Made by a program: the position numbers and the translations under genes. A stretch of 64,000 bases of DNA from Planctomyces sp. SH-PL62 (GTDB lineage: Bacteria > Planctomycetota > Planctomycetia > Isosphaerales > Isosphaeraceae), in the NCBI RefSeq assembly GCF_001610895.1, contig NZ_CP011273.1, forward strand, positions 1,178,001 through 1,242,000. Direction: 5' to 3'. Positions 4,295-55,661 of this stretch are shown here, piece after piece. How positions within the stretch are numbered: position 1 is the first letter of the stretch; the number at the start of each line of letters is the position of its first letter. The notes under the pieces were generated by a model, which saw nothing but the letters and a program-made list of their open reading frames with translations, was not told the origin of the DNA and searched no databases.

Positions 4295-4854
4295 GGTTCG
4301 GCTCCCCCTTGAACAACCTCGATCAAGGAGTCGGGGAAGCCCCCTGGTCGGTTCATCCGATCCCGAGTTTTCTTCCGGGCGTGCGTGGAGGAACGGGGCC
4401 GTACGAGAGCAGGGCTCGCTCGATCTCGGTTTCGTCTCCCATCATGAAAGCAGGGGGCGCTGCGCGCGGATGGGCGCCGATCCCGCAATCGGGGACGAGT
4501 TGATACGACGAACCGAAGGCTCGGTTCGGGAACTCAGGACGGCGGGGATTTGGGTCGGCGCTGCACGGAAATCGCCGAACGAAGCCAAAGTCGGAACAGT
4601 CGATCTGTGCGCAATCGCCTGTCTTGAAACGATTAACGTGCGATGGCTTCGATTTCAAGGGGCGCTGACGAAGCCAATCGCGAATGCTCCGCGGAGTCGA
4701 GGCGACGAGACGGTGAAATCCGCCGAACGAAGCCAATGCGATGAGCTGAGAAACGGTCGCAAGTGGTTTAGGAATCAAGACTTGGGAAGATCCGGGGTTG
4801 GGTTCGACCATTGCGATCGAACCCAATCCGGTGCGTGATCGGCGGGAGTCGCGG
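4295..4854. other. Intergenic region of 560 bp, no gene recognised
   Basis: The third-position bias of coding DNA is lost here and the stretch is visibly less GC-rich than its surroundings. I see no tRNA, no Rfam-like fold and no convincing open frame. Its only structure is a set of short repeats annotated separately. It presumably also carries the promoter of the ECF sigma operon, which starts at its left edge. Confidence 0.5.
4567..4740 (+). repeat. Cluster of dispersed 'CGAACGAAGCCAAT' intergenic repeats
   Basis: Three direct copies are visible: GAAATCGCCGAACGAAGCCAA (4568-4588), GCTGACGAAGCCAATCG (4664-4680) and GAAATCCGCCGAACGAAGCC (4715-4734, continuing AATGCG). A partial inverted copy (ATGGCTTCGATTTC, about 4643-4656) lies between them. 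The same core occurs on the other strand near 38.5 kb. When such sequence is translated it gives strings like 'ERTKPI/NKANF' that I associate with spurious short proteins in planctomycete databases, so it is probably a genome-wide repeat family. Function unknown. Confidence 0.6.
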
Positions 4855-45079: not shown

Positions 45080-45892
45080 CTAACCCGCCGGGGTCCCGGC
45101 GGCCAAGGAGGAGGCGGGCAGGCCGCCGAACTTCCGCTCTCTCGCGGCGAAATCGGCGCAGGCCCGGAGCAGGTCGGCGCCGCGGAAGTCGGGCCAGAGG
45201 GTCGGGGTGACCCAGAGCTCGGTGTAGGAGACCTGCCAGAGCAGGAAGTTGCTGATCCGCATCTCGCCCGCGGTGCGGATCAGGAGGTCGGGGTCGGCCG
45301 AGCCGGCGGTCTCCAGCAGGCCGGAGACGCTCGCCTCGTCGATGTCGGCGGGGGCGAGCCGCCCGGCGCGGACCTCCTCGGCGAGTCGCCGGACGGCGTC
45401 GACGATCTCGGTCCGGCCGCCGTAGTTGATCGCCAGTCGGAGGATCATGCCGGTGTTGGCGGCGGTCTCCGCGACGGTGCGGTCGATCTCCTCGAGGACC
45501 TCCGGGGGGAGCCCCTCGCGGCGGCCGATCACCCGCAGCCGGACGTTCTGCGCCATCAGCTCGGCCCGCTCGACGACCAGGAATCGCCGGAGCAGTCGCA
45601 TCAGGAACCGCAGCTCGCGGGGGGGCCGCTTCCAGTTCTCCACGGAGAGGCAGTAGAGCGTGAGCTGTTCGAGCCCCAGCCGGACGCCCTCCTCGACCAC
45701 GGCCCGGACGCTCTGGATTCCCCGGCGGTGGCCGACGACTCGGGGGAAACCCCGCTTCTGCGCCCAGCGGCCGTTGCCGTCCATGATCACGGCGACGTGT
45801 CGGGGGAGCTGCTCGGGCTTCAATCCCCAGTCTTGCAGCCGGGCCCGGCCTTCCTCGGTGATGTTCAGCGGGGGTTGCTCATCTGCTCGCAT
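45080..45892 (-). CDS. uppS: Isoprenyl transferase (undecaprenyl diphosphate synthase)
   Basis: The 270-residue enzyme builds undecaprenyl diphosphate for cell-envelope polymers. It has the catalytic VAVIMDGNGRWAQKRG with the key Asp and Asn, the GHRRGIQSVRAVVE region and SDPDLLIRTAGEMRISNFLL towards the end, written here in family form (the window reads SADPDLLIRTAGEMRIS). The C-terminus has the usual WPDF signature. Located 99 bp upstream of cdsA in the same direction. Confidence 0.95.
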   Translation of the reverse strand: MRADEQPPLNITEEGRARLQDWGLKPEQLPRHVAVIMDGNGRWAQKRGFPRVVGHRRGIQSVRAVVEEGVRLGLEQLTLYCLSVENWKRPPRELRFLMRLLRRFLVVERAELMAQNVRLRVIGRREGLPPEVLEEIDRTVAETAANTGMILRLAINYGGRTEIVDAVRRLAEEVRAGRLAPADIDEASVSGLLETAGSADPDLLIRTAGEMRISNFLLWQVSYTELWVTPTLWPDFRGADLLRACADFAARERKFGGLPASSLAAGTPAG

Positions 45893-45991
45893 GAGTCGCC
45901 TTCAGCCCATTCCATCCGGGGGGGTCATGCCGTCGGCGGCGCGGCCGGGTCGCCCGAAGCGGCGAGCCCAGGCCGACGCCTCCCTCGGCGC

Positions 45992-47296
45992 TCAGCGGTC
46001 GCGGGGAACCATGATCGTCTGGCGGCGGTCGGGGCCGACGGAAACGATCCCCGCAGGGACGCCGACGATCCGGCCCAGGTACTCGACGTAGTCGCGCGCC
46101 GCCTTGGGAAGGTCGTCCCAGTTCCGGGCGGCGGTCAGGTCTTCGGTCCAGCCCGGCAGGGTCTCGTAGACGGGGCGGCAGCGCTCCAGATCGGCCAGCG
46201 AGGCCGGCAGGACGTCGAGCTTGCGGCCGTCCAGCTCGTACGAGACGGCGACCTGCAGCTCCTCGATTCCGCTGAGGACGTCGAGCAGCATGACGGCGAG
46301 TTCGGTCGACCCGCTCACGCGGGACGAGTAGCGCACGGCCACGGCGTCGAACCAGCCGCAGCGCCGGGGGCGCCCGGTGACGGTCCCGTATTCGCGGCCG
46401 ACGCGGCGGATCCGTTCGCCGACCTCGTTGTCCTGCTCGGTGGGGAACGGGCCCCCGCCCACTCGGGTCGTGTACGCCTTGACGACGCCGATCCAGCGGT
46501 CGATGCAGCGCGACGGCACGCCCGAGCCCGGCGCCGTCCCGACCGCGCTGCTGCTCGAACTGGTCACGTAGGGATAACTGCCGTGGTCGACGTCGAGCAG
46601 CGAGCCCTGCGCCCCCTCGAACATCACGCGGCGGCCCGCGGCGACGGCCTCGTGGAGCTTGGACGTGGCGTCGCAGACGAACGGCCGGAGCTGCTCGGCG
46701 TAGCCGAGGTACTCCTCGGCCACCTCGGCGGCGTCGAACGGCTCGAAATCGGGGAGCATCGCGGTCAGCAGGCGATTCTTGAAGTCGACGATCCGACCCA
46801 GCCGCTCGCGAAGGTCCGCCGGCCGATACAGGTCGGCGACCCGGACGCCGTGGACCCGGCCGACCTTGTCCTTGTAGCAGGGGCCGATGCCCCGTCGGGT
46901 CGTCCCCAGGTGGTCGGCGGCCGAGGTCGACTCCTCGGTCAGCCGCTCCTCGGCCAGGTGGTAGGGGAGGATCACGTGGGCGCGATCGCTGATGTGCAGG
47001 CGGCCCTCGAACTTCACCCCCTGCGCCCGGAGCGAGTCCATCTCCTTCAGCAAGGCCGGGGGATGGATCACCACGCCGTTGGCGATGACGGCCTCGACGT
47101 TCTCGCGGAGGATGCCCGTCGGCACCAGGGAGAGTTTGTACGTCATCCCCTCATGGACGACCGTATGGCCGGCGTTGGCCCCCCCCTGATACCGCACGAC
47201 CACATCGTGGTGGTCGCACAGCAAATCCACGATCTTCCCCTTGGCCTCGTCCCCCCATTGGAGGCCGACAACGCACGTCGAACCCACGGCGCACAC
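45992..47296 (-). CDS. purA: Adenylosuccinate synthetase
   Basis: PurA joins IMP and aspartate with GTP in AMP synthesis. The 434-residue protein is complete: VVGLQWGDEAKGKIVDLL (P-loop and catalytic Asp), GGANAGHTVVH, TTRRGIGPCYKDKVGR and TRVGGGPFPTEQ. The start is GTG; a second GTG three codons in is possible. A near-palindrome TGTAAAGTTACA lies 37 bp upstream (47333-47344) and may bind a regulator. Confidence 0.96.
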   Translation of the reverse strand: MCAVGSTCVVGLQWGDEAKGKIVDLLCDHHDVVVRYQGGANAGHTVVHEGMTYKLSLVPTGILRENVEAVIANGVVIHPPALLKEMDSLRAQGVKFEGRLHISDRAHVILPYHLAEERLTEESTSAADHLGTTRRGIGPCYKDKVGRVHGVRVADLYRPADLRERLGRIVDFKNRLLTAMLPDFEPFDAAEVAEEYLGYAEQLRPFVCDATSKLHEAVAAGRRVMFEGAQGSLLDVDHGSYPYVTSSSSSAVGTAPGSGVPSRCIDRWIGVVKAYTTRVGGGPFPTEQDNEVGERIRRVGREYGTVTGRPRRCGWFDAVAVRYSSRVSGSTELAVMLLDVLSGIEELQVAVSYELDGRKLDVLPASLADLERCRPVYETLPGWTEDLTAARNWDDLPKAARDYVEYLGRIVGVPAGIVSVGPDRRQTIMVPRDR

Positions 47297-47332
47297 TCCG
47301 AAGCGGCTCGCGACCCGGCGGTCGCTTGGTAA

Positions 47333-47344
47333 TGTAAAGTTACA
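47333..47344. promoter_or_regulatory. Near-palindrome upstream of purA
   Basis: TGTAAAGTTACA has five-base arms TGTAA/TTACA separated by two bases, in A/T-rich DNA within 40 bp of the purA start. It could be a repressor site or part of the -10 region; no matching -35 box is visible. Confidence 0.35.
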
Positions 47345-47407
47345 CGGTACACGCCCCGGACGACCTCGTCAATGAGGCGGAATCGCGGGGCGGATCGAGG
47401 CCCGGAC

Positions 47408-48568
47408 TCAGGCCATCGCCGTGCGGAACTCGTCGAACAGGTACTGGCTGTCGTGCGGGCCGGCGGCGGCCTCGGGGTGGTACTGGACGCCGAAGACGGG
47501 CAGGCGGGTGTGCCGGAGCCCTTCGAGCGTCTGGTCGTTGAGGTTGACGTGGCTGGCGACCACGTCGGCCGGCAGGGTGGATGGGTCGACGGCGAACCCG
47601 TGGTTCTGGACGGTGATCTCGATCTTCCCGGTGGCCTCGTTGCGGACCGGGTGGTTGGCGCCCCGGTGGCCGAATCGGAGCTTGAAGGTGTCGGCCCCGA
47701 ACGCCTGGCCGAGGAGTTGATGGCCCAGGCAGATGCCGAAGATGGGGATGCCTCGCGACTCCGCGGCGGTCCGGATCAGGGTCTTGAGGACGTTGGTGGC
47801 CTCGACGAGGGGGCGGGGGTCGCCGGGGCCGTTGGAGAGGAACACGCCGTCGGGTTGGTGCTCCATCACGGCCTCGGCAGACGCCGAGCCGGGGACCACG
47901 GTGACCCGGCAGCCGATGTCGACCAGGTGCCGGGGGATGCTCCACTTCATGCCGAAGTCCATCGCCACGACGTGCGGACGCTTCGCCCCGTCCGCCCGGC
48001 GACGCACTTCCGACCCCCCCCGTCCCGAGGCGTCGAACTGGTAATCCTGGTCCAGGCCCGAGTCCCAGACCTTCGCCTCGCTCGGCATGACCTCGCTGGC
48101 GAGGGCGCGGCCGACCATCCCCGGGCTCTTGCGGGCCTTGGCGACGAGGCTGGCGTCGTCGAGGTCGGCGGTCGACAGGATTCCCCGGAGGGCGCCCTGG
48201 ACTCGCGTCAGCCGCACCAGGGCTCGGGTGTCGATCCCCGACACGCCGACGACGCCGTTCTCCTCCAGGTAGGCCGCCAGGGACTTCTCCGCCCGGAAGT
48301 TGCTGACCCGACTGCTCAGCTCTCGCACCACGAACCCGCGGACCCAGGGCCGTCGGCTCTCGGCGTCCTCGGTGTTCACGCCGTAGTTGCCGATCTCGGG
48401 GTAGGTCATCGCCACGATCTGGCCGTGGTACGAGGGGTCGGTGAGGATCTCCTGATAGCCGGTCATGCTCGTGTTGAACACGACCTCGCCCTCGATCTCG
48501 CCCTGAGCCCCGAATGAGCGGCCCGTGAACACCGAGCCGTCTTCGAGCGCCAGTTTCGCCGTGCCCAT
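47408..48568 (-). CDS. carA: Carbamoyl phosphate synthase small subunit
   Basis: CarA is the glutaminase subunit that feeds ammonia to CarB for arginine and pyrimidine synthesis. The 386-residue protein shows the N-terminal GEIEGEVVFNTSMTGYQEIL domain and the amidotransferase triad: Cys in GICLGHQLLGQAF, and His and Glu in VQYHPEAAAGP. carB is not adjacent in this window; purA lies downstream on the same strand. Confidence 0.96.
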   Translation of the reverse strand: MGTAKLALEDGSVFTGRSFGAQGEIEGEVVFNTSMTGYQEILTDPSYHGQIVAMTYPEIGNYGVNTEDAESRRPWVRGFVVRELSSRVSNFRAEKSLAAYLEENGVVGVSGIDTRALVRLTRVQGALRGILSTADLDDASLVAKARKSPGMVGRALASEVMPSEAKVWDSGLDQDYQFDASGRGGSEVRRRADGAKRPHVVAMDFGMKWSIPRHLVDIGCRVTVVPGSASAEAVMEHQPDGVFLSNGPGDPRPLVEATNVLKTLIRTAAESRGIPIFGICLGHQLLGQAFGADTFKLRFGHRGANHPVRNEATGKIEITVQNHGFAVDPSTLPADVVASHVNLNDQTLEGLRHTRLPVFGVQYHPEAAAGPHDSQYLFDEFRTAMA

Positions 48569-48694: not shown

Positions 48695-50458
48695 TCATCC
48701 GGTCCGGCCGTCCGGTTCGTCGGGGTCGAGGAAGGCCGAGGCGAGGTTCGCCGCGGTCGCGATCAGCGCCAGGGAGGCGGCGATCGCCGCCCCGCCGCCG
48801 GGCCGTTCATGGAAGAGGAGCAGGCCCGGGCCGATCGTCGCGGAGTGGGCCGAGGAGGCCAGCACGACCGCCGGCGCGACGTTCACCGCCGCCGTCGCGA
48901 CGGTCGCCGCCGCGGCCCGCCACCGCCCCGATCCGAACCCTCCTCGGGCCAGCCGCCGCGCCCCGCTGCGCCCCGCCCCGGCGAGGGTCGCGGCGTCCCG
49001 GCACTCGGCCGTCCCGGTCGCGAGGGGAGGGCGCCGGCCGTCGAGCCGCGACGCGACGGTCGCCAGCCAGACCCCGAGGATCACCGTCGCGAGGCCGAGT
49101 CGCTCGCCGTCCAGCCCCTCGACGAGGCGACGGGTCGCGATCGACGAACGCGAGTCGACCGTCTCTGCCGCCAGCCCGATCAGGAATCCGAAGGCCAGGA
49201 CGACGACCCCCGCGACCATCGGCGGCGGCGCGAGGAGTCGCGCCAGGCGTCGGAACCGACCGGACGCCGCGGGCCCCGCCCCGGCCTCCAGGCCGCCGAG
49301 CGCGCGGCCCGAGATCGCCGCCAGGATCGCCACGCCCAAACCCAGGACGATCGAGCGGAACAGCAGGCGCGTCACGGCCGGGTCGGCGAGCCGAGGGACG
49401 ATCGCCGCCGACCGGAACCCGGATTCGCCCCCGTCGAAGGCCGCCCGCGCGAGCCCCCCCAGCGGGACGGCCGCGAGGATCGCGCCTGATCCGAGGAGCG
49501 TCGACAGGACGACCACGCGCGGCCAGGAGGCGGCGGGACGCGCCCGCCCCCCGTCGCGATCGCGCCGGGGCGGCCCTACAAGCCGGGTCGGCCCGGCCCA
49601 GAGCCGCAGCGTCGCGCGGGCCGTCGCGCAGGCGAGCAGCGCCAGGAGCCCCAGGACCGCGAGCCGGGGAAAAGGCGCGGCGTCGAACGCGGCGGACGCC
49701 ATCTGGAATCCGAGGGTCCGCCGCAGGCCGAGGATCAGGGGGGGGCCGGGATCGGCCAGCGTCACCGCGAAGACGAGGCCGCCGACGCGGGCCATCGCGG
49801 GCCGGAGCAGGGGCCAGGCGAGCCGTCGCCAGGCTCGCGTCCCGTCGGCACCCGCAAGTCGGGCCGCGTCGCGCCAGGCGGGGTCCAGGCGGTCCAGGGC
49901 CCACGCGTACGCCAGGGTCGCGGCCGCCGCGCCGGGGAGCGAGGCCGCCAGCAGCCAGAGGAGCCAGCCTGCGTCGGCGGGGAGGTGACGGGTCGCGCGT
50001 TCGGACCGGGACAGGATCGTAGACCAGGCCGTCGCGGCGTCGTCGCCGACCGCCGCCGAGGCCCCCATCGCCAGGGCGACGGAGGGCGTCGCCGCCAGGG
50101 CCGTGAGCAGCAGGAGGGCCGGGCCGCGAAGCCGGAACGCCCGATCGCCGATCAGGCGGCCGACGACGACCCCCGCGACCATCGCCGTCGACGCCGCCAG
50201 TCCGGCGACGACGACGCTGTTGCGGACGCACGCCCAGACGAACGGGTCGAGCGCGGCGATCGCGACCGGGAAGAGCGACGCCCGGACCTCGCCGTCGGGC
50301 GCCCGGTCCAGCAGCGCGCAGACTCCCATCGCGGCGAGCGGCCCGGCCACGAGCAATCCCAGCGCGATCGACGAAAACCAGCTTGCGATCAGACGAATCA
50401 ACCGGAAATCCCCGAACCCGATCCTGACAGGTACGACCCCGACGATCGTCGCCACCAT
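48695..50458 (-). CDS. ABC importer permease with two fused membrane domains
   Basis: The 587-residue protein has about 12 membrane helices and two binding-protein-dependent permease units, as in iron(III), thiamine and putrescine-type fused permeases (FbpB, ThiP). The first half shows an EAA-like loop (WRDAARLAGADGTRAWRRL, then AWPLLRPA), the second a more degenerate one (RDAATLAGAGRSGARRLARG). It is the last gene of a minus-strand operon with the ATPase (89 bp upstream) and the solute-binding lipoprotein. Start at MVATIVGVVPVR. Confidence 0.78.
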   Translation of the reverse strand: MVATIVGVVPVRIGFGDFRLIRLIASWFSSIALGLLVAGPLAAMGVCALLDRAPDGEVRASLFPVAIAALDPFVWACVRNSVVVAGLAASTAMVAGVVVGRLIGDRAFRLRGPALLLLTALAATPSVALAMGASAAVGDDAATAWSTILSRSERATRHLPADAGWLLWLLAASLPGAAAATLAYAWALDRLDPAWRDAARLAGADGTRAWRRLAWPLLRPAMARVGGLVFAVTLADPGPPLILGLRRTLGFQMASAAFDAAPFPRLAVLGLLALLACATARATLRLWAGPTRLVGPPRRDRDGGRARPAASWPRVVVLSTLLGSGAILAAVPLGGLARAAFDGGESGFRSAAIVPRLADPAVTRLLFRSIVLGLGVAILAAISGRALGGLEAGAGPAASGRFRRLARLLAPPPMVAGVVVLAFGFLIGLAAETVDSRSSIATRRLVEGLDGERLGLATVILGVWLATVASRLDGRRPPLATGTAECRDAATLAGAGRSGARRLARGGFGSGRWRAAAATVATAAVNVAPAVVLASSAHSATIGPGLLLFHERPGGGAAIAASLALIATAANLASAFLDPDEPDGRTG

Positions 50459-50547: not shown

Positions 50548-51654
50548 CTAGGATCCGCCGCCGACGGCGAACTTGCCGGGAAGGAGCGTGACGTTCTCGG
50601 GGGCGATCGAGAGGGTCACGCTCTGGCCCTCGCGGACGTGCGCCGACTGGCTCTGCAGGGCCAGCGCGGTGACGGGCCAATCGCCGGGGCCTCGGAGGAG
50701 GATGCGGCGGGTGGAGCCCTGGAAGGTGATCCGCTCGATGGTCGCCGGGAAGCGGTTGGCGTCGCTGGGGATTCCGGGCCCCAGCGCGAGCGACTCCGGC
50801 CGGATGGAGACCGTCAGCGAGGTGGTCGCCGTGGGCGCCGGGAGGTTGGTGCGGGCCACGAGGCGGCCGACCGGCGTGCGGACGACGACCTCCCGGCGGG
50901 AGGGGTCGTGGCTGAGGCCGTCGACCTGGCCTTGCAGCAGGTTGGTCGGGCCGAGCAGCCGCGCGACGAAGACGTCGACCGGCTGGGTGTACAACTCGTG
51001 GGGCGTGCCGCTCTGGAGGATGCGACCGAGGTCCATCACCGCCAGGCGGTCGGCGCGGGCGAGGGCCTCGGGGACCGCCGAGGTCAACAGGAGCGTGGTC
51101 AGGCCGGCCTCCACGCGGGCGCGACGGATCTCGTCCCAGGCGTCGTCGCGCCCCTGGGGCTCGACGCCCGCGAGCGGCTCGTCCAGGATCAGGACGTCGG
51201 GCTGGGCGATCAGGGCGCGGGCCAGGGCCACGCGCAGCGACTGGCCGGGCGTCAGGGCGGCGGGGCGGAGGTCGGCCAGGGTGTCGACCCGCAGCGCGGC
51301 GAGCGTCTCGTCGACCCGTCGCCGACGCTCGCGGCCGGGGACGCCCTGGAGCTTCAGCGGGTAGGCCACGTTGTCGCGCACCGAGAGCGCGGGCCAGAGG
51401 GCGTGATCGCGGAAGACCATGCCGACGCCCCGATCGCGCGGGGGAAGGGCCTGGACCATGCGGTCGCCGAAATAGATCTCGCCGTCGTCGGCCGATTCGA
51501 GCCCGGCCAGCAGCCTCGCGAGCGTGGTCTTGCCCGCTCCCGGCGGGCCGAGCAGGCAGGTCAGCTCGCCCGGCGGCAGTTCGAGCGACGCGTGATCGAC
51601 GGCCGCGACGCGGCCGTAACGCTTGACCAGACCTTCGGCGATGACACGGATCAT
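50548..51654 (-). CDS. ABC transporter ATPase with degenerate catalytic motifs
   Basis: The 368-residue protein has a MalK/PotA-type layout with a C-terminal TOBE-like domain (VSIRPESLALG). Walker A (GPPGAGKTT, residues 36-44) and Walker B with its Glu (VLILDEP, 154-160) are intact. Other motifs are not: the Q-loop Gln is Arg82 (MVFRDHALWP), the signature LSGGQ reads LTPGQ (134-138), the D-loop is AGVEP, and the H-loop His is Ser192 (LLLTSAVPEAL). ATP turnover is thus doubtful. Its ATG overlaps the stop of the binding-protein gene by 4 bp (ATGA). Confidence 0.82.
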   Translation of the reverse strand: MIRVIAEGLVKRYGRVAAVDHASLELPPGELTCLLGPPGAGKTTLARLLAGLESADDGEIYFGDRMVQALPPRDRGVGMVFRDHALWPALSVRDNVAYPLKLQGVPGRERRRRVDETLAALRVDTLADLRPAALTPGQSLRVALARALIAQPDVLILDEPLAGVEPQGRDDAWDEIRRARVEAGLTTLLLTSAVPEALARADRLAVMDLGRILQSGTPHELYTQPVDVFVARLLGPTNLLQGQVDGLSHDPSRREVVVRTPVGRLVARTNLPAPTATTSLTVSIRPESLALGPGIPSDANRFPATIERITFQGSTRRILLRGPGDWPVTALALQSQSAHVREGQSVTLSIAPENVTLLPGKFAVGGGS

Positions 51655-52922
51655 GAGTCGCTCGACGGGGGCGGCGGCGGGGGAAAGACGGGCGCGACCC
51701 CCGAGGCGGCCAGCCGCGCCACCCAACGGTAACGCTGTCGGGCCCATTGCGTCCATTCCGCCTTCAGCCAGGATCGAAATCGGGGCTCGCGGGCCAGCCG
51801 CCCCCCCGCGCCGGCCGCCACCTCCGCGAGAACTTCGCCGTCGAGCGGCCGGCGCGGCTTGAGCCAGCTCTGGGCGAGCCAGAGCCGCAGGTCCGGGGCG
51901 GGGGCGACCTGGCCGATGAGCGTCTCGACGAGCGTCAGGCCCGCCTCGCCCTCGCGTCGCAGCAGCTTCTCGACCGACGCCGGCGGCCACGGCGGCGGCT
52001 GGGTCAGCAGGTCCGTCGCCCAGGCCGGGGAGCCGGCCTTGCGGACCGCGGCCGAGGCCGCCGACAGCTCCGGTTGCGCGTCGACGAGGGTCGCCCCCAG
52101 CAGGTCGGCGGCGAGGTCCTCCGCGTCGGCCTCGGGGCGCGCGTCCAGCGGAGACTCGAACTTCGGGCCGGGCTCGGCCCCCCGAGTCTCGGCCAGGAAT
52201 TTCAGGAACGCCCGAGCGGCCCGCGACCGTCGCGCGCCGATCGGGATCGCCGCCCCCTCGACGAACTCGACGGCCTCGAATGAAGACGCTTCGGCCGGCT
52301 CCGGAACGGCGACGGTCCGCCCGGCCCGACCTCGCTCCACGGTCGCCCGCGCCGATCCGGCGCGCCAGCCGATGGGGACCTCGGCCTCGCCGTAGAGCCC
52401 GACCAGGCTCGCGTAGCGGGCCGACCACGGTTCCCGGTCGGCCCTCCTCCCCAGCGCCCAGGCTCGGGTCGCCGGGTCGAGACGGGGGTCGGCCAGGGCG
52501 AGCCGCGTCGAGGACCCCGACCCATCCGAGAGCCCGACCGTCCCACGGCTGGCGACGACCCAGTAGGGCCGAGGCGCGCCGTCGCCCAGGCTCTCCAGCC
52601 TTCCCTCGGCCGCGAGCCTGGCGTAATCGGAGATCGGTCCTCCGAGCAGCAGGTCGGCCCTTCGCGCCGAAGAGGCGATCGGCTCGTCCTCGGGGAGCTC
52701 GATCCAGGCGATGGCCCCGGCGTCGACGGCTTCCCTCTCCGGGCGGTCCCGGAGCCACTCGGCGAACTCCCGGGCCAGTCGCGCGCACTCGGCTCGCGTC
52801 CGATTCGTCGCGACCCGCAGCACGTCGTCGCGATCGCCCGCGCAGCCGATCTCCAGCAGCGCGACCGCGACGACGATCGCGACCGAGGGGCGCCGGAGGA
52901 TCGGGACGACGGGCGGTTTCAT
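51651..52922 (-). CDS. Solute-binding lipoprotein of the ABC importer
   Basis: The product (about 423 residues) has a lipoprotein signal (SVAIVVAVALLEIGC) and a body that resembles iron or thiamine-type periplasmic binding proteins (VLRVATNRTRAECARLAREF near the mature start, then ADLLLGGPISDYARL). The C-terminal third is an extra helical region ending in a Pro/Ser tail. The ligand is not evident; no Tyr-rich iron site stands out. Start at MKPPVVPILRR. First gene of the operon with the degenerate ATPase and fused permease. Confidence 0.72.
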   Translation of the reverse strand: MKPPVVPILRRPSVAIVVAVALLEIGCAGDRDDVLRVATNRTRAECARLAREFAEWLRDRPEREAVDAGAIAWIELPEDEPIASSARRADLLLGGPISDYARLAAEGRLESLGDGAPRPYWVVASRGTVGLSDGSGSSTRLALADPRLDPATRAWALGRRADREPWSARYASLVGLYGEAEVPIGWRAGSARATVERGRAGRTVAVPEPAEASSFEAVEFVEGAAIPIGARRSRAARAFLKFLAETRGAEPGPKFESPLDARPEADAEDLAADLLGATLVDAQPELSAASAAVRKAGSPAWATDLLTQPPPWPPASVEKLLRREGEAGLTLVETLIGQVAPAPDLRLWLAQSWLKPRRPLDGEVLAEVAAGAGGRLAREPRFRSWLKAEWTQWARQRYRWVARLAASGVAPVFPPPPPPSSDS

Positions 52923-52977
52923 GGACGCTCCTGGGATCGCGAGGACGGCTCTCGGTCGCGGTGGGATCGAACGACGT

Positions 52978-53252
52978 CCTTCCCCCCTGGCGGGCTTGTA
53001 GGGGGAGGTATTCTGCAAGATTCTGGGCTGAAACAGGTTGCGTGGACAAATCGCACGGAATCGCGGCCGTTACGGAAGTCGATTAATCATGTGCCAGAAC
53101 GCCGCCGTGATCTGGCCCCGTAAATCACGGGGTTCTCCACGAACGGTGAACTCGGGCGTCGATCCGAAGCCCCGAAATCACGATCAGCAACCTCTCTCAA
53201 AACCAGTAGTTGCGAAAATACCTCCCCTTGTAAGCCCCCTGGCGGGGGAAGG
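52978..53252. repeat. Inverted-repeat-bounded element (MITE/REP-like)
   Basis: The left arm 52978-53017 is an imperfect inverted copy of the right arm 53211-53252; shared parts include ATACCTCCCC, then TAAGCCC/ACAAGCCC and GGGGGAAGG. The arms enclose about 190 bases without coding signs. The right arm reads in one frame as PLVSPLAGEGGTQGRMRG, a phrase common in spurious proteins from GC-rich genomes, so it is probably a multicopy palindromic repeat. Confidence 0.55.
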
Positions 53253-53296
53253 TGGCACGCAGGGCCGGATGCGGGGGGGGCGAGCACCGAGACCGT

Positions 53297-53461
53297 CGGC
53301 GCTTCGTGCGGCCGGACTGAGAATCCCGACGGCTCCATGTGCTCGGCACCCCCTCATCTAACCCCTTCGGGGTCTGTCTTCCCCCGCGAGGGGGGAAGAC
53401 CGCTATTGAGCGTGGAAGCCGCCGGCGTTTCGGGCGACCGGGCTGCGAATCCCGACGGCTC
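53297..53461 (+). repeat. Imperfect direct repeat of 39 bases
   Basis: Units 53297-53335 and 53423-53461 agree at about 33 of 39 positions and share the exact end GAATCCCGACGGCTC. The 126-base period includes a C/G-rich spacer. Confidence 0.55.
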
Positions 53462-53569
53462 TCGCGCTGTTCTTCCCCTGCAAGGGGGGGGCGTCGGAGG
53501 GCCCGCTTTTCTTTTATTGACTATTGATACTCCTCACTCGACTCCACCGAGTTCCGGCGAAATCCCTTC

Positions 53570-53602
53570 GGGTGCCACGGGTTCAGAGAACCCGTGGCAC
53601 CC
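53570..53602. repeat. Perfect palindromic hairpin repeat
   Basis: GGGTGCCACGGGTTC (53570-53584) is followed by AGA and its exact reverse complement (53588-53602), a 15-bp stem with a three-base loop. In frame it reads GATGSENPWHP, which I associate with repeated spurious annotations in planctomycetes, so it is likely a dispersed REP-like element, possibly also a terminator for the M28-PDZ gene on the minus strand. Confidence 0.6.
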
Positions 53603-53657
53603 CGATTGCCGTCTCCCGATCCGCTTGAGGTGGTGGTGTTAAGTGAGGAGTCTCCTT

Positions 53658-55661
53658 TTATTGCTTGGGCGGCGAGGTGGACTTGCCCAGCTCGACGCGA
53701 AGGGTGACGTCCTTGCCGTCGCGCTTGATGAGGACGTCGACGGCGTCTCCCGGCTTGTAGCGGCCCAGGCTTTCCATGTAGTCGTAGATCGTCCCGATCG
53801 GCTTGCCGCCGATGCCGATGATCACGTCGCCCCCCTTGAGTCCGGCCTTGGCGGCGGGGCCGCCTTCGCGAACGTCGGAGAGCTTCATGCCGGCCTTGCC
53901 CTCGTCGGCGTAGTCGGGCATGACGCCCAAAGTGACGCTCATCCCGGTGGAGGCCGACTGCGAAGGCGACGCCGACGGCGACGTCGAGGCGCCGTGCCTA
54001 GCGGGGGCAGGGCCGCGCGCGAAGGCCGGGCGTTGGGGTCGTCGGAGGATGTCGAGCAGGAGCAGCTCGATGTAGTCGGCGATCCCGGCCATCCCCGCGT
54101 AGTTGATCTTCGCCGAGTCGTCGCTGGGGCGGTGGTAGTCGGAATGGATGCCGGTGAACGCGAACAGGATGGGGACGTCCTTGGCGTGGAACGACTGGTG
54201 GTCGCTGCCGCCGAAGCCGTCGGTCATGCCCGGGACCTTCTTGATGGTCAGGCCGGAGTCCTTGCCGAGCGCGTCGACCAGGCCGTCGAAGCCGGGGGAG
54301 GTCCCGGTGCCGATCATCGTCAGCTCACGCTTCTCGTTCAGGCGGCCCACCATGTCGAAATTGAACATGGCGACCGTGGATTCGATCGGGAAGGGGGGGT
54401 GTTCGACGTAATGCTGCGAGCCGAGCAGCCCGCGCTCCTCGCCGGAGAAGGCGACGAAGACGATCCGGCGGGGGGGCGGGTCGCGACGTTCCGCGAGCCG
54501 ACGGGCCAGTTCCAGGGTCAGGGCGGTGCCCGACGCGTTGTCGTCGGCGCCGTTGTGCACGTCGGTCGAGAGGAAGGCCAGCGAGCCCGAAGTCAGGCCG
54601 CCTCGACCCAGGTGGTCGTAATGGCCGCCGACGACGATCGTCTCGCCGGAGTTCGGCCCCGCCCCTTCCAGCACGCCGATCACGTTGCTGGTCTCGATGG
54701 CGGGCCGGTCGATCTTGACGCGGCCGGCGACGGCCAGCCCCTTCAACTCGCGCGAGCGCGGCTTGTAGTCCTTGTCGATCTCCGCCTCCAACTCGGCCAG
54801 CGTGGGCTCGCCGGCGGCCTTGAGGATCTTGTCGGCGAAGTCGCGGGTGACGTGGACGATCGGCAGGAGGGCGAGGGTCTCGGAGCCCGCCGAGCCCAGG
54901 TTCAGGAGGGCGTCGCGGTCGGAGCCGAGACCGGCCAGGTCGTTGACCACCAGCAGCATCGCGGCCCCGTGCTGGTAGGCGTTGGTCGCCTTGTGGCGGA
55001 AGGTGGCGAAGTCGCTGGTCTTCTTGCCGTCGAACGGGCTCGCCTCATCGTTCAGGCCGGGCTCGCGGCGGAGGACGAGGACGACCTTGCCCTTCGCGTC
55101 GATCCCCGCGTAATCGTCGTACGCCAGATTCTTGTCCGGCCGGTCGGCCGTGATGCCGAAGCCCGCGAAGACGATCGGGGCGGCGTCGGCCGAGCCGGTC
55201 GTCCCAATGGCCATGGGGTTGAAATCGGTCCGGGGGACGCCGGCGATCGCGACGTCGCCGGGCCCCTTGACGGTCAGTTCGAGGGGGTCGCCGAGGCGCG
55301 GCTGGCCGGAGATCGTGAACTTCTGGAAGTAGCCGTCGCCGCCGGGGGGGGGCTGGAGGCCGAGATCCTTGAATCGCCCGGCGATGTACTCGGCCGAGGC
55401 CTCGATCCCCTGCGTCCCGGGCGCGCGGCCCTCCTGGGCGTCGTCGGCGAGGAACGTCACGTCGTCCCGGAGCCGGACCTCGGCCGGGGAGACGAACGTC
55501 GACGTCGCGGCCGGCGAGTCGGCCCCGCCGCCCCCGTCCCCGACCGGCGCCTGCGCCCGCGTCCCGACGACGGCTGGCCCGAAGGTCAGGGCCGCCAGGG
55601 CCGCCAGGCCCGCCGCGACCCCCGAGAACCGCCCCGGACTCCCCACGCGATGCCTCATCAT
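53658..55661 (-). CDS. Secreted M28 zinc aminopeptidase with C-terminal PDZ domain
   Basis: The 667-residue protein has a Sec signal (VAAGLAALAALTFGPAVVG), a protease-associated domain (about 150-330) and an M28 core with the five zinc ligands: GGHYDHLG (His), NGADDNASG (Asp), SGEERGLLGS (Glu), FNFDMVG (Asp) and SDYHRPSD (His). A Ser/Pro/Ala linker leads to a PDZ domain (about 575-660; KAGLKGGDVIIGIGGKPI). It likely removes amino acids from peptides outside the cytoplasm, with the PDZ part recognising partners. Confidence 0.9.
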   Translation of the reverse strand: MMRHRVGSPGRFSGVAAGLAALAALTFGPAVVGTRAQAPVGDGGGGADSPAATSTFVSPAEVRLRDDVTFLADDAQEGRAPGTQGIEASAEYIAGRFKDLGLQPPPGGDGYFQKFTISGQPRLGDPLELTVKGPGDVAIAGVPRTDFNPMAIGTTGSADAAPIVFAGFGITADRPDKNLAYDDYAGIDAKGKVVLVLRREPGLNDEASPFDGKKTSDFATFRHKATNAYQHGAAMLLVVNDLAGLGSDRDALLNLGSAGSETLALLPIVHVTRDFADKILKAAGEPTLAELEAEIDKDYKPRSRELKGLAVAGRVKIDRPAIETSNVIGVLEGAGPNSGETIVVGGHYDHLGRGGLTSGSLAFLSTDVHNGADDNASGTALTLELARRLAERRDPPPRRIVFVAFSGEERGLLGSQHYVEHPPFPIESTVAMFNFDMVGRLNEKRELTMIGTGTSPGFDGLVDALGKDSGLTIKKVPGMTDGFGGSDHQSFHAKDVPILFAFTGIHSDYHRPSDDSAKINYAGMAGIADYIELLLLDILRRPQRPAFARGPAPARHGASTSPSASPSQSASTGMSVTLGVMPDYADEGKAGMKLSDVREGGPAAKAGLKGGDVIIGIGGKPIGTIYDYMESLGRYKPGDAVDVLIKRDGKDVTLRVELGKSTSPPKQ

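Follow-up and report, generated by a model that had tools for sequence, protein, structure and literature searches.

The closest described systems are type I importers of the FbpABC and PhnSTU2 type. The locus analysed here resembles them in gene order, as seen at two loci of the family coded f8, and in the folds of its ATPase and its substrate-binding protein (SBP). It differs from them in that the ATPase has lost the signature, the D-loop, the H-loop and often also the Q-loop and the catalytic Glu, while the ligand domain of the lipoprotein is trimmed, its tail is longer and the second EAA loop of the permease (EAA2) is half eroded. Taken as a whole, the locus suggests an old pump that was turned into some other membrane device. 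We consider it rather probable, on the basis of sequence comparison, that it encodes a repurposed type I ABC importer specific to Isosphaeraceae, in which ATP would be bound but not hydrolysed.

A single degenerate site is frequent among ABC proteins. Similar changes in the signature, the Walker B Glu and the H-loop are described for TAP, BmrCD, Pdr5, CFTR, RbsA and NupO in excerpts of two papers (PMC7756269, PMC11466899). However, such proteins combine two different NBDs and retain one consensus site, whereas both sites would be degenerate here, since one gene encodes the sole NBD seen at the locus. Walker A differs as well: the present ATPase keeps it, whereas RbsA, NupO and Pdr5 have a changed Walker A at their degenerate sites. 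RbsA and NupO are importers with one degenerate site, in which the NBDs are fused and the second Walker A Lys is missing (excerpt of PMC11466899). In the degenerate site of Pdr5 changing one or two motifs had no effect, while making all four canonical abolished the activity (excerpt of PMC7756269); thus, degenerate sites can be functional.

A functional analogy exists to FtsEX-EnvC and YbbAP-TesA, in which an ABC complex serves transmembrane signalling or a periplasmic hydrolase (for YbbAP-TesA: excerpt of PMC12646458). Both are however type VII systems with working ATPases, whereas the present locus appears to descend from a type I importer, its ATPase looks deficient in hydrolysis and the partnership with a peptidase is putative. 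In SUR1, too, the nucleotide state of an ABC protein governs a partner and drives no pump. The likeness to SUR1 is functional; SUR1 is a eukaryotic ABCC protein and the kinship is no closer than the superfamily. Among open-licence papers, no description was found of this locus, of an importer in which every site is degenerate, or of an importer-derived system whose sole visible NBD is degenerate and which nevertheless persists in practically all genomes of a family.

Such a system would represent a natural separation of ATP binding from hydrolysis, for which the canonical relatives in f8 provide a ready control. If genes are annotated by their best match, the locus could pass for a normal importer of sugars or phosphonates and thereby mislead metabolic reconstructions of planctomycetes. 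The features of the locus are compiled in Table 1; the window is the whole analysed stretch of 64,000 nucleotides.

Table 1. Features of the locus, with positions in the window and the basis of each assignment or its conservation.
Feature	Position	Strand	Basis or conservation
Degenerate MalK/FbpC-type ABC ATPase, 368 aa	50548..51654	-	translation, Pfam, AF2
Walker A GPPGAGKTT, intact	51523..51549	-	Lys42 in 40/40 orthologues
Q-loop residue 82, Arg for Gln, in VFRDHALWP	51409..51411	-	Gln in 18/40 orthologues
Signature LTPGQ for LSGGQ	51241..51255	-	GG in 0/40 orthologues
Walker B VLILDEP and D-loop AGVEP	51157..51195	-	Asp158 in 40/40, Glu159 in 24/40, Asp165 in 15/40 orthologues (Glu in 17)
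H-loop residue 192, Ser for His, in LLTSAVPEA	51079..51081	-	His in 3/40 orthologues
C-terminal TOBE regulatory region	50581..50943	-	conservation equal to NBD across the family
Lipoprotein, trimmed type II substrate-binding domain and C-terminal tail, 423 aa	51651..52922	-	translation, AF2
Conserved lipoprotein C-terminal tail PPWPPAS ... FRxWLRAEWTAWARQRYRR	51654..52103	-	in 42/45 family genomes
Fused two-half permease, 587 aa	48695..50458	-	weak match to BPD_transp_1
EAA loop 1 (docking loop), kept	49811..49870	-	Gly 24/24, Pro 23/24
EAA loop 2, second half eroded	48938..48997	-	Asp/Glu 21, Ala 19, Gly 23, Pro 4 of 24
carA, neighbour of the permease gene	47408..48568	-	downstream of the ATPase in 17/40 loci
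M28 peptidase with PA and PDZ domains	53658..55661	-	Pfam

Fold and motifs of the ATPase

The ATPase gene runs on the minus strand from 51654 to 50548 and comprises 368 codons followed by a TAG stop codon. Its product matched the Pfam families PF00005 (ABC_tran; E 7.3e-29) and TOBE_2 (E 2.4e-11). The AF2 (AlphaFold2) model reached a pLDDT of 91.9 and matched both MalK (9bcr_D; Z 37.2, 352 residues, rmsd 2.3) and FbpC (9j4r_B; Z 37.2, 334 residues, rmsd 2.8). By homology and fold the protein thus belongs to the ABC ATPase superfamily. Its best NCBIfam match was PhnT2 (TIGR03265), the score of 258.3 bits being under the cut-off of 457.7.

A reading of the DNA made from the sequence alone (the sequence-only reading) had described Walker A and B as intact and had pointed out Arg82, LTPGQ, AGVEP and Ser192. 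All of these assignments were confirmed by aligning the NBD without gaps to solved MalK-type ATPases, the best of which was 1v43 (E 1.2e-59). A misreading of the motifs was rejected, as the NBD alignments to 1v43, 1vci and 2yyz contain no gaps; together with the match of the AF2 model they indicate an intact ATPase fold and genuine substitutions. The D-loop reads AGVE at the position of the canonical SNLD and the Walker B Glu is present, so that among the catalytic Glu, the switch His and the Q-loop Gln the Glu alone is found in the window ATPase.

Our sample of the family, presumably the Isosphaeraceae, comprised 45 genomes, 40 of which contained a clear orthologue of the ATPase (39 full-length, one partial). 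The motifs were read in all 40. Weaker matches (about 35-45% identity) were put aside as paralogues, the motifs of which were checked in 13 rows, two of them from a single locus region in the genome of the window. By record, the carriers of the lipoprotein tail are Paludisphaera soli, Singulisphaera and Tautonia sociabilis, and furthermore MAGs called Isosphaeraceae, Planctomycetales or Planctomycetota. The MAG contigs L138 and L139, which also carry the system, are labelled Candidatus Kuenenia stuttgartiensis; these labels look wrong.

Alignment of the close homologues, a check named in the sequence-only reading, revealed that the substitutions are family-wide. Lys42 and Asp158 occur in every orthologue and an intact signature occurs in none (Table 1); the six members of the window's genus (G000-G005) all lack both GG and His, the Q-loop Gln being present in G002. 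The catalytic Glu159 is replaced in 16 orthologues (11 Asp, 3 Ala, 2 Ser), and the A-loop Tyr or Phe, which stacks on adenine, is found in 26 and missing in 14. Gln82, signature residues 135-137, Asp165 and His192 occupy positions that range at the 70th-90th percentile of variability in the 39 full-length members; the same positions are invariant in 27 canonical rows. Gly41, Lys42 and Asp158 are invariant in the full-length family members, and the position of the catalytic Glu lies merely at the 53rd percentile.

Recent decay in a single species was rejected as an explanation, since the loss of motifs is common to the orthologues throughout the family. Sister species with normal motifs, which the sequence-only reading had named as a refutation, were not among them. 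The three orthologues with a switch His (G031, G065 and G066; loci L054, L079 and L080) have a second His directly after it (LTHH). Their close relatives lack it, and the residue was either retained or regained.

NG86 estimates of dN/dS for the ATPase, in which dS is rough in such GC-rich DNA, ranged from 0.067 to 0.194 in 13 close pairs, some of which share a genome, and point to purifying selection. Where YN00 was computed, its dS was mostly higher than that of NG86, with the exception of the lipoprotein of G007-G026. The canonical relatives gave 0.187 and 0.219 in the two pairs free of the paralogue L092, the other two of four pairs being inflated by the apparent frameshift of L092. The earlier view of an unusual loss of motifs in a preserved reading frame is supported, and the dN/dS test proposed along with it indicates selection.

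The importer-like system is kept in nearly every family genome examined, some part of it being present in 44 of the 45. In G036 a fragment of the ATPase gene lies at a contig end, in G020 and G015 the contig ends within the lipoprotein gene, and in G011 the match to the tail begins at base 3 of its contig. The sole blank among the 45 is G061 (77% complete), in which neither an ATPase orthologue nor the tail was found. Thus, the missing orthologues look like assembly gaps. The ATPase frames are open; two of the 40 matches (G034, G027) cross one stop codon, and the respective ORFs still comprise 364 and 350 aa.

The varied residues at the lost sites might also be expected of a dying operon, in which selection was relaxed after the loss of transport and which was caught at different stages. 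The fast evolution of the lipoprotein (NG86 dN/dS 0.25-0.48, 7 pairs) and of the permease (0.28-0.51, 5 pairs) would agree with this scenario; an NBD that evolves more slowly than its neighbours is usual in ABC operons. However, the persistence of the system in 44 genomes, the open frames and the low dN/dS of the ATPase, and the strong conservation of the TOBE domain and of a lipoprotein tail that has even gained residues make a dying operon very improbable.

Canonical relatives and origin

Among 198 genomes of the class searched for the nearest ATPases outside the family, the best matches (E 1e-65 to 1e-73) came from three genomes of a family coded f8 and one genome of a family coded f3. All four of these ATPases have LSGGQ, the Q-loop Gln, SNLD and the His, and the ALWP stretch is common to both sets. 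The f8 loci L143 and L144 show the order lipoprotein-ATPase-permease, which is that of the window. No relative of the lipoprotein or the permease was found adjoining the other two f8/f3 ATPases. The lipoproteins of L143 and L144 match SBP_bac_6 (3.1e-15 and 1.6e-14), and the permease of L143 matches BPD_transp_1 in two stretches (2.7e-26). The NCBIfam matches in f8 were of the 2-aminoethylphosphonate, molybdate and polyamine type, none over the cut-off among the matches listed. The ancestor was probably a normal Fe/phosphonate-type system composed of a lipoprotein SBP, a MalK/FbpC-type ATPase and a fused permease, of a kind that persists in another planctomycete family.

A tree built without 12 motif positions requires one change for GG, four for the His, eight for the Glu and nine for the Gln. 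The single change for GG depends on the tree, in which the branch separating the family from the four nearest canonical rows is supported at 98/73 and does not reach the starred level. The tree is drawn open in its deep part, and G016 and G017 are long branches that meet. These counts would fit a scenario in which the ATP sandwich was lost once, early on, and the sites that had thereby become dispensable drifted afterwards.

The genome of the window contains 58 ABC-type matches, i.e. the window ATPase and 57 further ones, and 42 other NBD loci were examined, L225 being read solely in two pieces. None of these 42 lacked both GG and the His. GG is missing and the His is kept in 20 complete NBDs, which by reading are mostly of the exporter type; all of them keep the second Gly, as LTPGQ does, 13 also lack the Q-loop Gln, and one (L226) has Asp for the catalytic Glu as well. 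Two other NBDs lack the His alone. Since NBDs without GG are frequent in the same genome, the change in the signature or in the Q-loop of the window ATPase is not extraordinary by itself, and GG is a loose criterion for ABC membership. What is extraordinary is the combination with the loss of the His and the spread throughout the family. The second Gly of LTPGQ, which is kept as in working exporters of the same genome, speaks against a repurposing.

A canonical ABC ATPase paralogue of the window genome (L092, about 4602-4629; G000:C1 near 138,600) changes frame after about residue 216-224 in comparison to the G003 protein, due to either a real mutation or a sequencing error. The canonical ATPase paralogues are presumably of the sulfate type.

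The sequence-only reading had furthermore proposed that the system may depend on another ATPase. In such a case the degenerate subunit would pair with a canonical shared ATPase encoded elsewhere and form an asymmetric transporter. MsmX is a shared ATPase that serves several importers. Shared and exchangeable ATPases have been described for type I importers (excerpt of PMC7658222), and the number of ABC-type matches in the window genome is in line with this possibility. However, the degenerate pairs described in an excerpt of PMC7756269 jointly keep one consensus site, and since one protein here lacks the signature, the D-loop and, in 37 of 40 orthologues, the His, neither composite site could be fully normal with any partner. 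When the ATPase was used as query, no second NBD was found in the 40 loci, just a C-terminal stretch in G014. With the trans elements lost and the cis His mostly lost too, the proposal appears weak and we regard the pairing as improbable.

Lipoprotein, permease and carA

The lipoprotein gene lies upstream of the ATPase gene, its stop codon overlapping the start codon of the latter (ATGA). In the AF2 model of the lipoprotein (pLDDT 87.9) residues 32-280 match 6wce (Z 14.7, 220 residues, rmsd 3.4), which indicates a type II SBP fold; no match to Pfam, SBP families included, was found for the window lipoprotein. In comparison to f8 most lipoproteins of the family lack about 95 residues of the ligand-binding part and have gained about 46 residues towards the C-terminus (residues 326-350 and 362-382 of the lipoprotein encoded in the window). 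The lipoprotein of the MAG G018 is 253 aa long and the start of its gene overlaps the stop of the peptidase gene by 4 bases, so that it seems to consist of little beyond signal, linker and tail. In G063 and G032, which have the same genus code, the lipoprotein comprises 374 aa.

No part of the lipoprotein is better kept than the C-terminal tail, which has 11 invariant columns in 27 sequences. Of 397 genomes searched in the class, 42 contained the tail; all of them belong to the 45 of the family and none to the 352 others. The earlier description of the tail as atypical thus holds in that it is nearly family-specific, and it is conserved at the same time. The window tail had no match in Pfam at E up to 1. 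Searching all 27 tails at this threshold yielded three families, each in one or two members, and sequences from the PDB matched at E 0.11 or worse; both results were treated as chance. Its first third weakly matches f8 sequences (12.6 and 11.5 bits), and the tail is therefore not wholly new. It represents a conserved domain of the lipoprotein for which Pfam has no family.

The match of the permease to BPD_transp_1 (1.2e-4) is below the cut-off and covers the N-terminal half alone. This weak match is also what bears on a possible FtsX/MacB-type permease fold, as in the type VII mechanotransmitters FtsEX, YbbAP and MacB. A crude hydropathy scan predicted 10-13 hydrophobic segments in 24 orthologues. 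Mean pairwise identity of the permeases amounts to 44.8% around EAA1 and 27.9% around EAA2. The EAA loops had been called atypical in the sequence-only reading; EAA1 is normal, and the description applies to EAA2, the second half of which is lost while the first half is kept.

Strong orthologues of the permease (E up to 1e-77) were identified in 17 of 25 genomes searched, weak matches alone in seven, and no match in the remaining one, G026 (68% complete). In several genomes the permease gene is located apart from the ATPase gene, yet it is retained. A loss of the permease in genus g6 was considered and rejected for G027, where a divergent permease gene adjoins carA; weak matches likewise exist in G036 and G064. 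At six loci (L046, L048, L049, L052, L067, L075) a gene of cluster C9, oxidoreductase-like by eye, lies between the ATPase and permease genes on the opposite strand.

The gene carA adjoins the permease gene even where the latter sits apart from the ATPase gene, as in G027. In the window carA, purA and uppS follow the permease gene (45080-48568), an order common to G001, G016, G017 and G065. The linkage to carA is probably synteny only.

The retention of an SBP fold, a permease and an ATPase, as well as the Walker B Glu in 24 of 40 orthologues, would also be compatible with a system that still imports, either slowly or on ATP binding alone. In this case the TOBE domains would hold a loose NBD dimer together, which would close on ATP in spite of lacking a proper signature and hydrolyse it poorly. 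FbpC, a relative in fold, has an extended domain-swapped dimer of its regulatory domains (excerpt of PMC2896483), and translocation by TmrAB is reported to be powered by ATP binding alone (excerpt of PMC13040083). On the other hand, the signature is broken in all 40 orthologues, the catalytic Glu is replaced by Ala or Ser in five of them, the ligand domain is trimmed in most lipoproteins and almost absent from that of G018, and EAA2 is half eroded. The very slow transporter considered in the sequence-only reading sits badly with the 16 replacements of the Glu, the near-absence of the ligand domain in G018 and the erosion of EAA2, and we regard continued import as unlikely.

TOBE domain, linked peptidase gene and possible mode of action

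The ratio of TOBE to NBD identity is 1.01 within the family (741 pairs). For 15 canonical relatives it amounts to 0.50 (105 pairs), and for the four canonical ATPases nearest to the family to 0.40 (6 pairs). The value for the 15 relatives was recomputed without L092 due to its apparent frameshift (0.50 instead of 0.47). In very close canonical pairs the gap is smaller (NBD 93.5%, TOBE 85.7%; 5 pairs).

The raised constraint on TOBE and the unlinked permease gene in several genomes could indicate that the ATPase gave up transport and acts as a soluble regulator via TOBE, its neighbours being carried along. The regulatory domain of MalK binds enzyme IIA-glc and MalT (excerpt of PMC11466899). Such a departure from the membrane does not fit the conservation of EAA1 in the permease and of Trp87-Pro88 in the ATPase, nor the presence of a permease orthologue, which is strong in 17 of the 25 genomes searched and divergent in G027, and it appears hardly probable.

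The sequence-only reading had missed the family-wide extent of the change, the remodelling of the complex, the tail as the best-kept part of the lipoprotein and the linked peptidase gene. The M28-PDZ peptidase, by reading a secreted protein with a signal peptide, is encoded upstream on the same strand at 35 of 40 loci, or at 35 of the 36 with enough upstream DNA. Of the five loci without it, four hold less than 1.3 kb of upstream DNA, and in G024 the gene is located elsewhere. The gap between the peptidase and lipoprotein genes measures -4 to 279 bases in 32 relatives and is -4 in six of them. The peptidase occurs throughout the class (58 of 59 relatives), and most of its carriers outside the family lack the importer-like system. 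No peptidase gene was found beside the four f8/f3 ATPases within the 2.5 to 5.7 kb covered upstream of the ATPase.

Returning to the repurposed importer that binds ATP but does not hydrolyse it, the retention of Walker A and of the Walker B Asp, together with the ALWP stretch beside the Q-loop, would allow a nucleotide to be held in cis. The loss of the signature, the D-loop, the H-loop and often the catalytic Glu would preclude both a trans ATP sandwich and hydrolysis. These features strongly suggest that ATP or another nucleotide is bound without turnover. The NBD would probably dock mainly via EAA1 on the first half of the permease, and the complex presumably does not pump. The kept cis elements and the erosion of EAA2 make a nucleotide-binding NBD docked on the first permease half, without a sandwich, the simplest picture. 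Binding of the nucleotide may stabilise or switch the transmembrane assembly, the working surfaces of which would be the cytoplasmic TOBE domain and the periplasmic tail of the lipoprotein. The nucleotide-gated receptor suggested in the sequence-only reading is hereby supported in spirit.

Several observations qualify this picture. As the A-loop aromatic residue is present in 26 of 40 orthologues, deeply branching members may bind the nucleotide weakly or no longer at all, while the His in three members and the catalytic Glu in 24 make residual hydrolysis possible. The kept first half of EAA2 weakens the assumption of a single docking site. Furthermore, all three subunits are kept and the permease has its 10-13 hydrophobic segments, as in a transporter, which argues against a repurposing.

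Judging from the linkage of the genes, one might guess that the assembly holds or controls a partner in the envelope, such as the M28-PDZ peptidase. A more specific version, which is speculative and which we would not expect to hold in full, envisages a nucleotide-sensing complex that does not pump, with a single pseudo-ATPase on one half of the permease and a tail that anchors or gates the peptidase in the periplasm.

The gap between the peptidase and lipoprotein genes of the window itself (52923-53657) measures 735 bases, compared to -4 to 279 bases in its relatives, and may contain an insertion in the window genome. In G014 (L055, 10633-10866) an extra stretch matches residues 290-364 of the ATPase alone (56% identity) about 4.5 kb downstream of the orthologue, and represents a copy of the TOBE domain only or a fragment.
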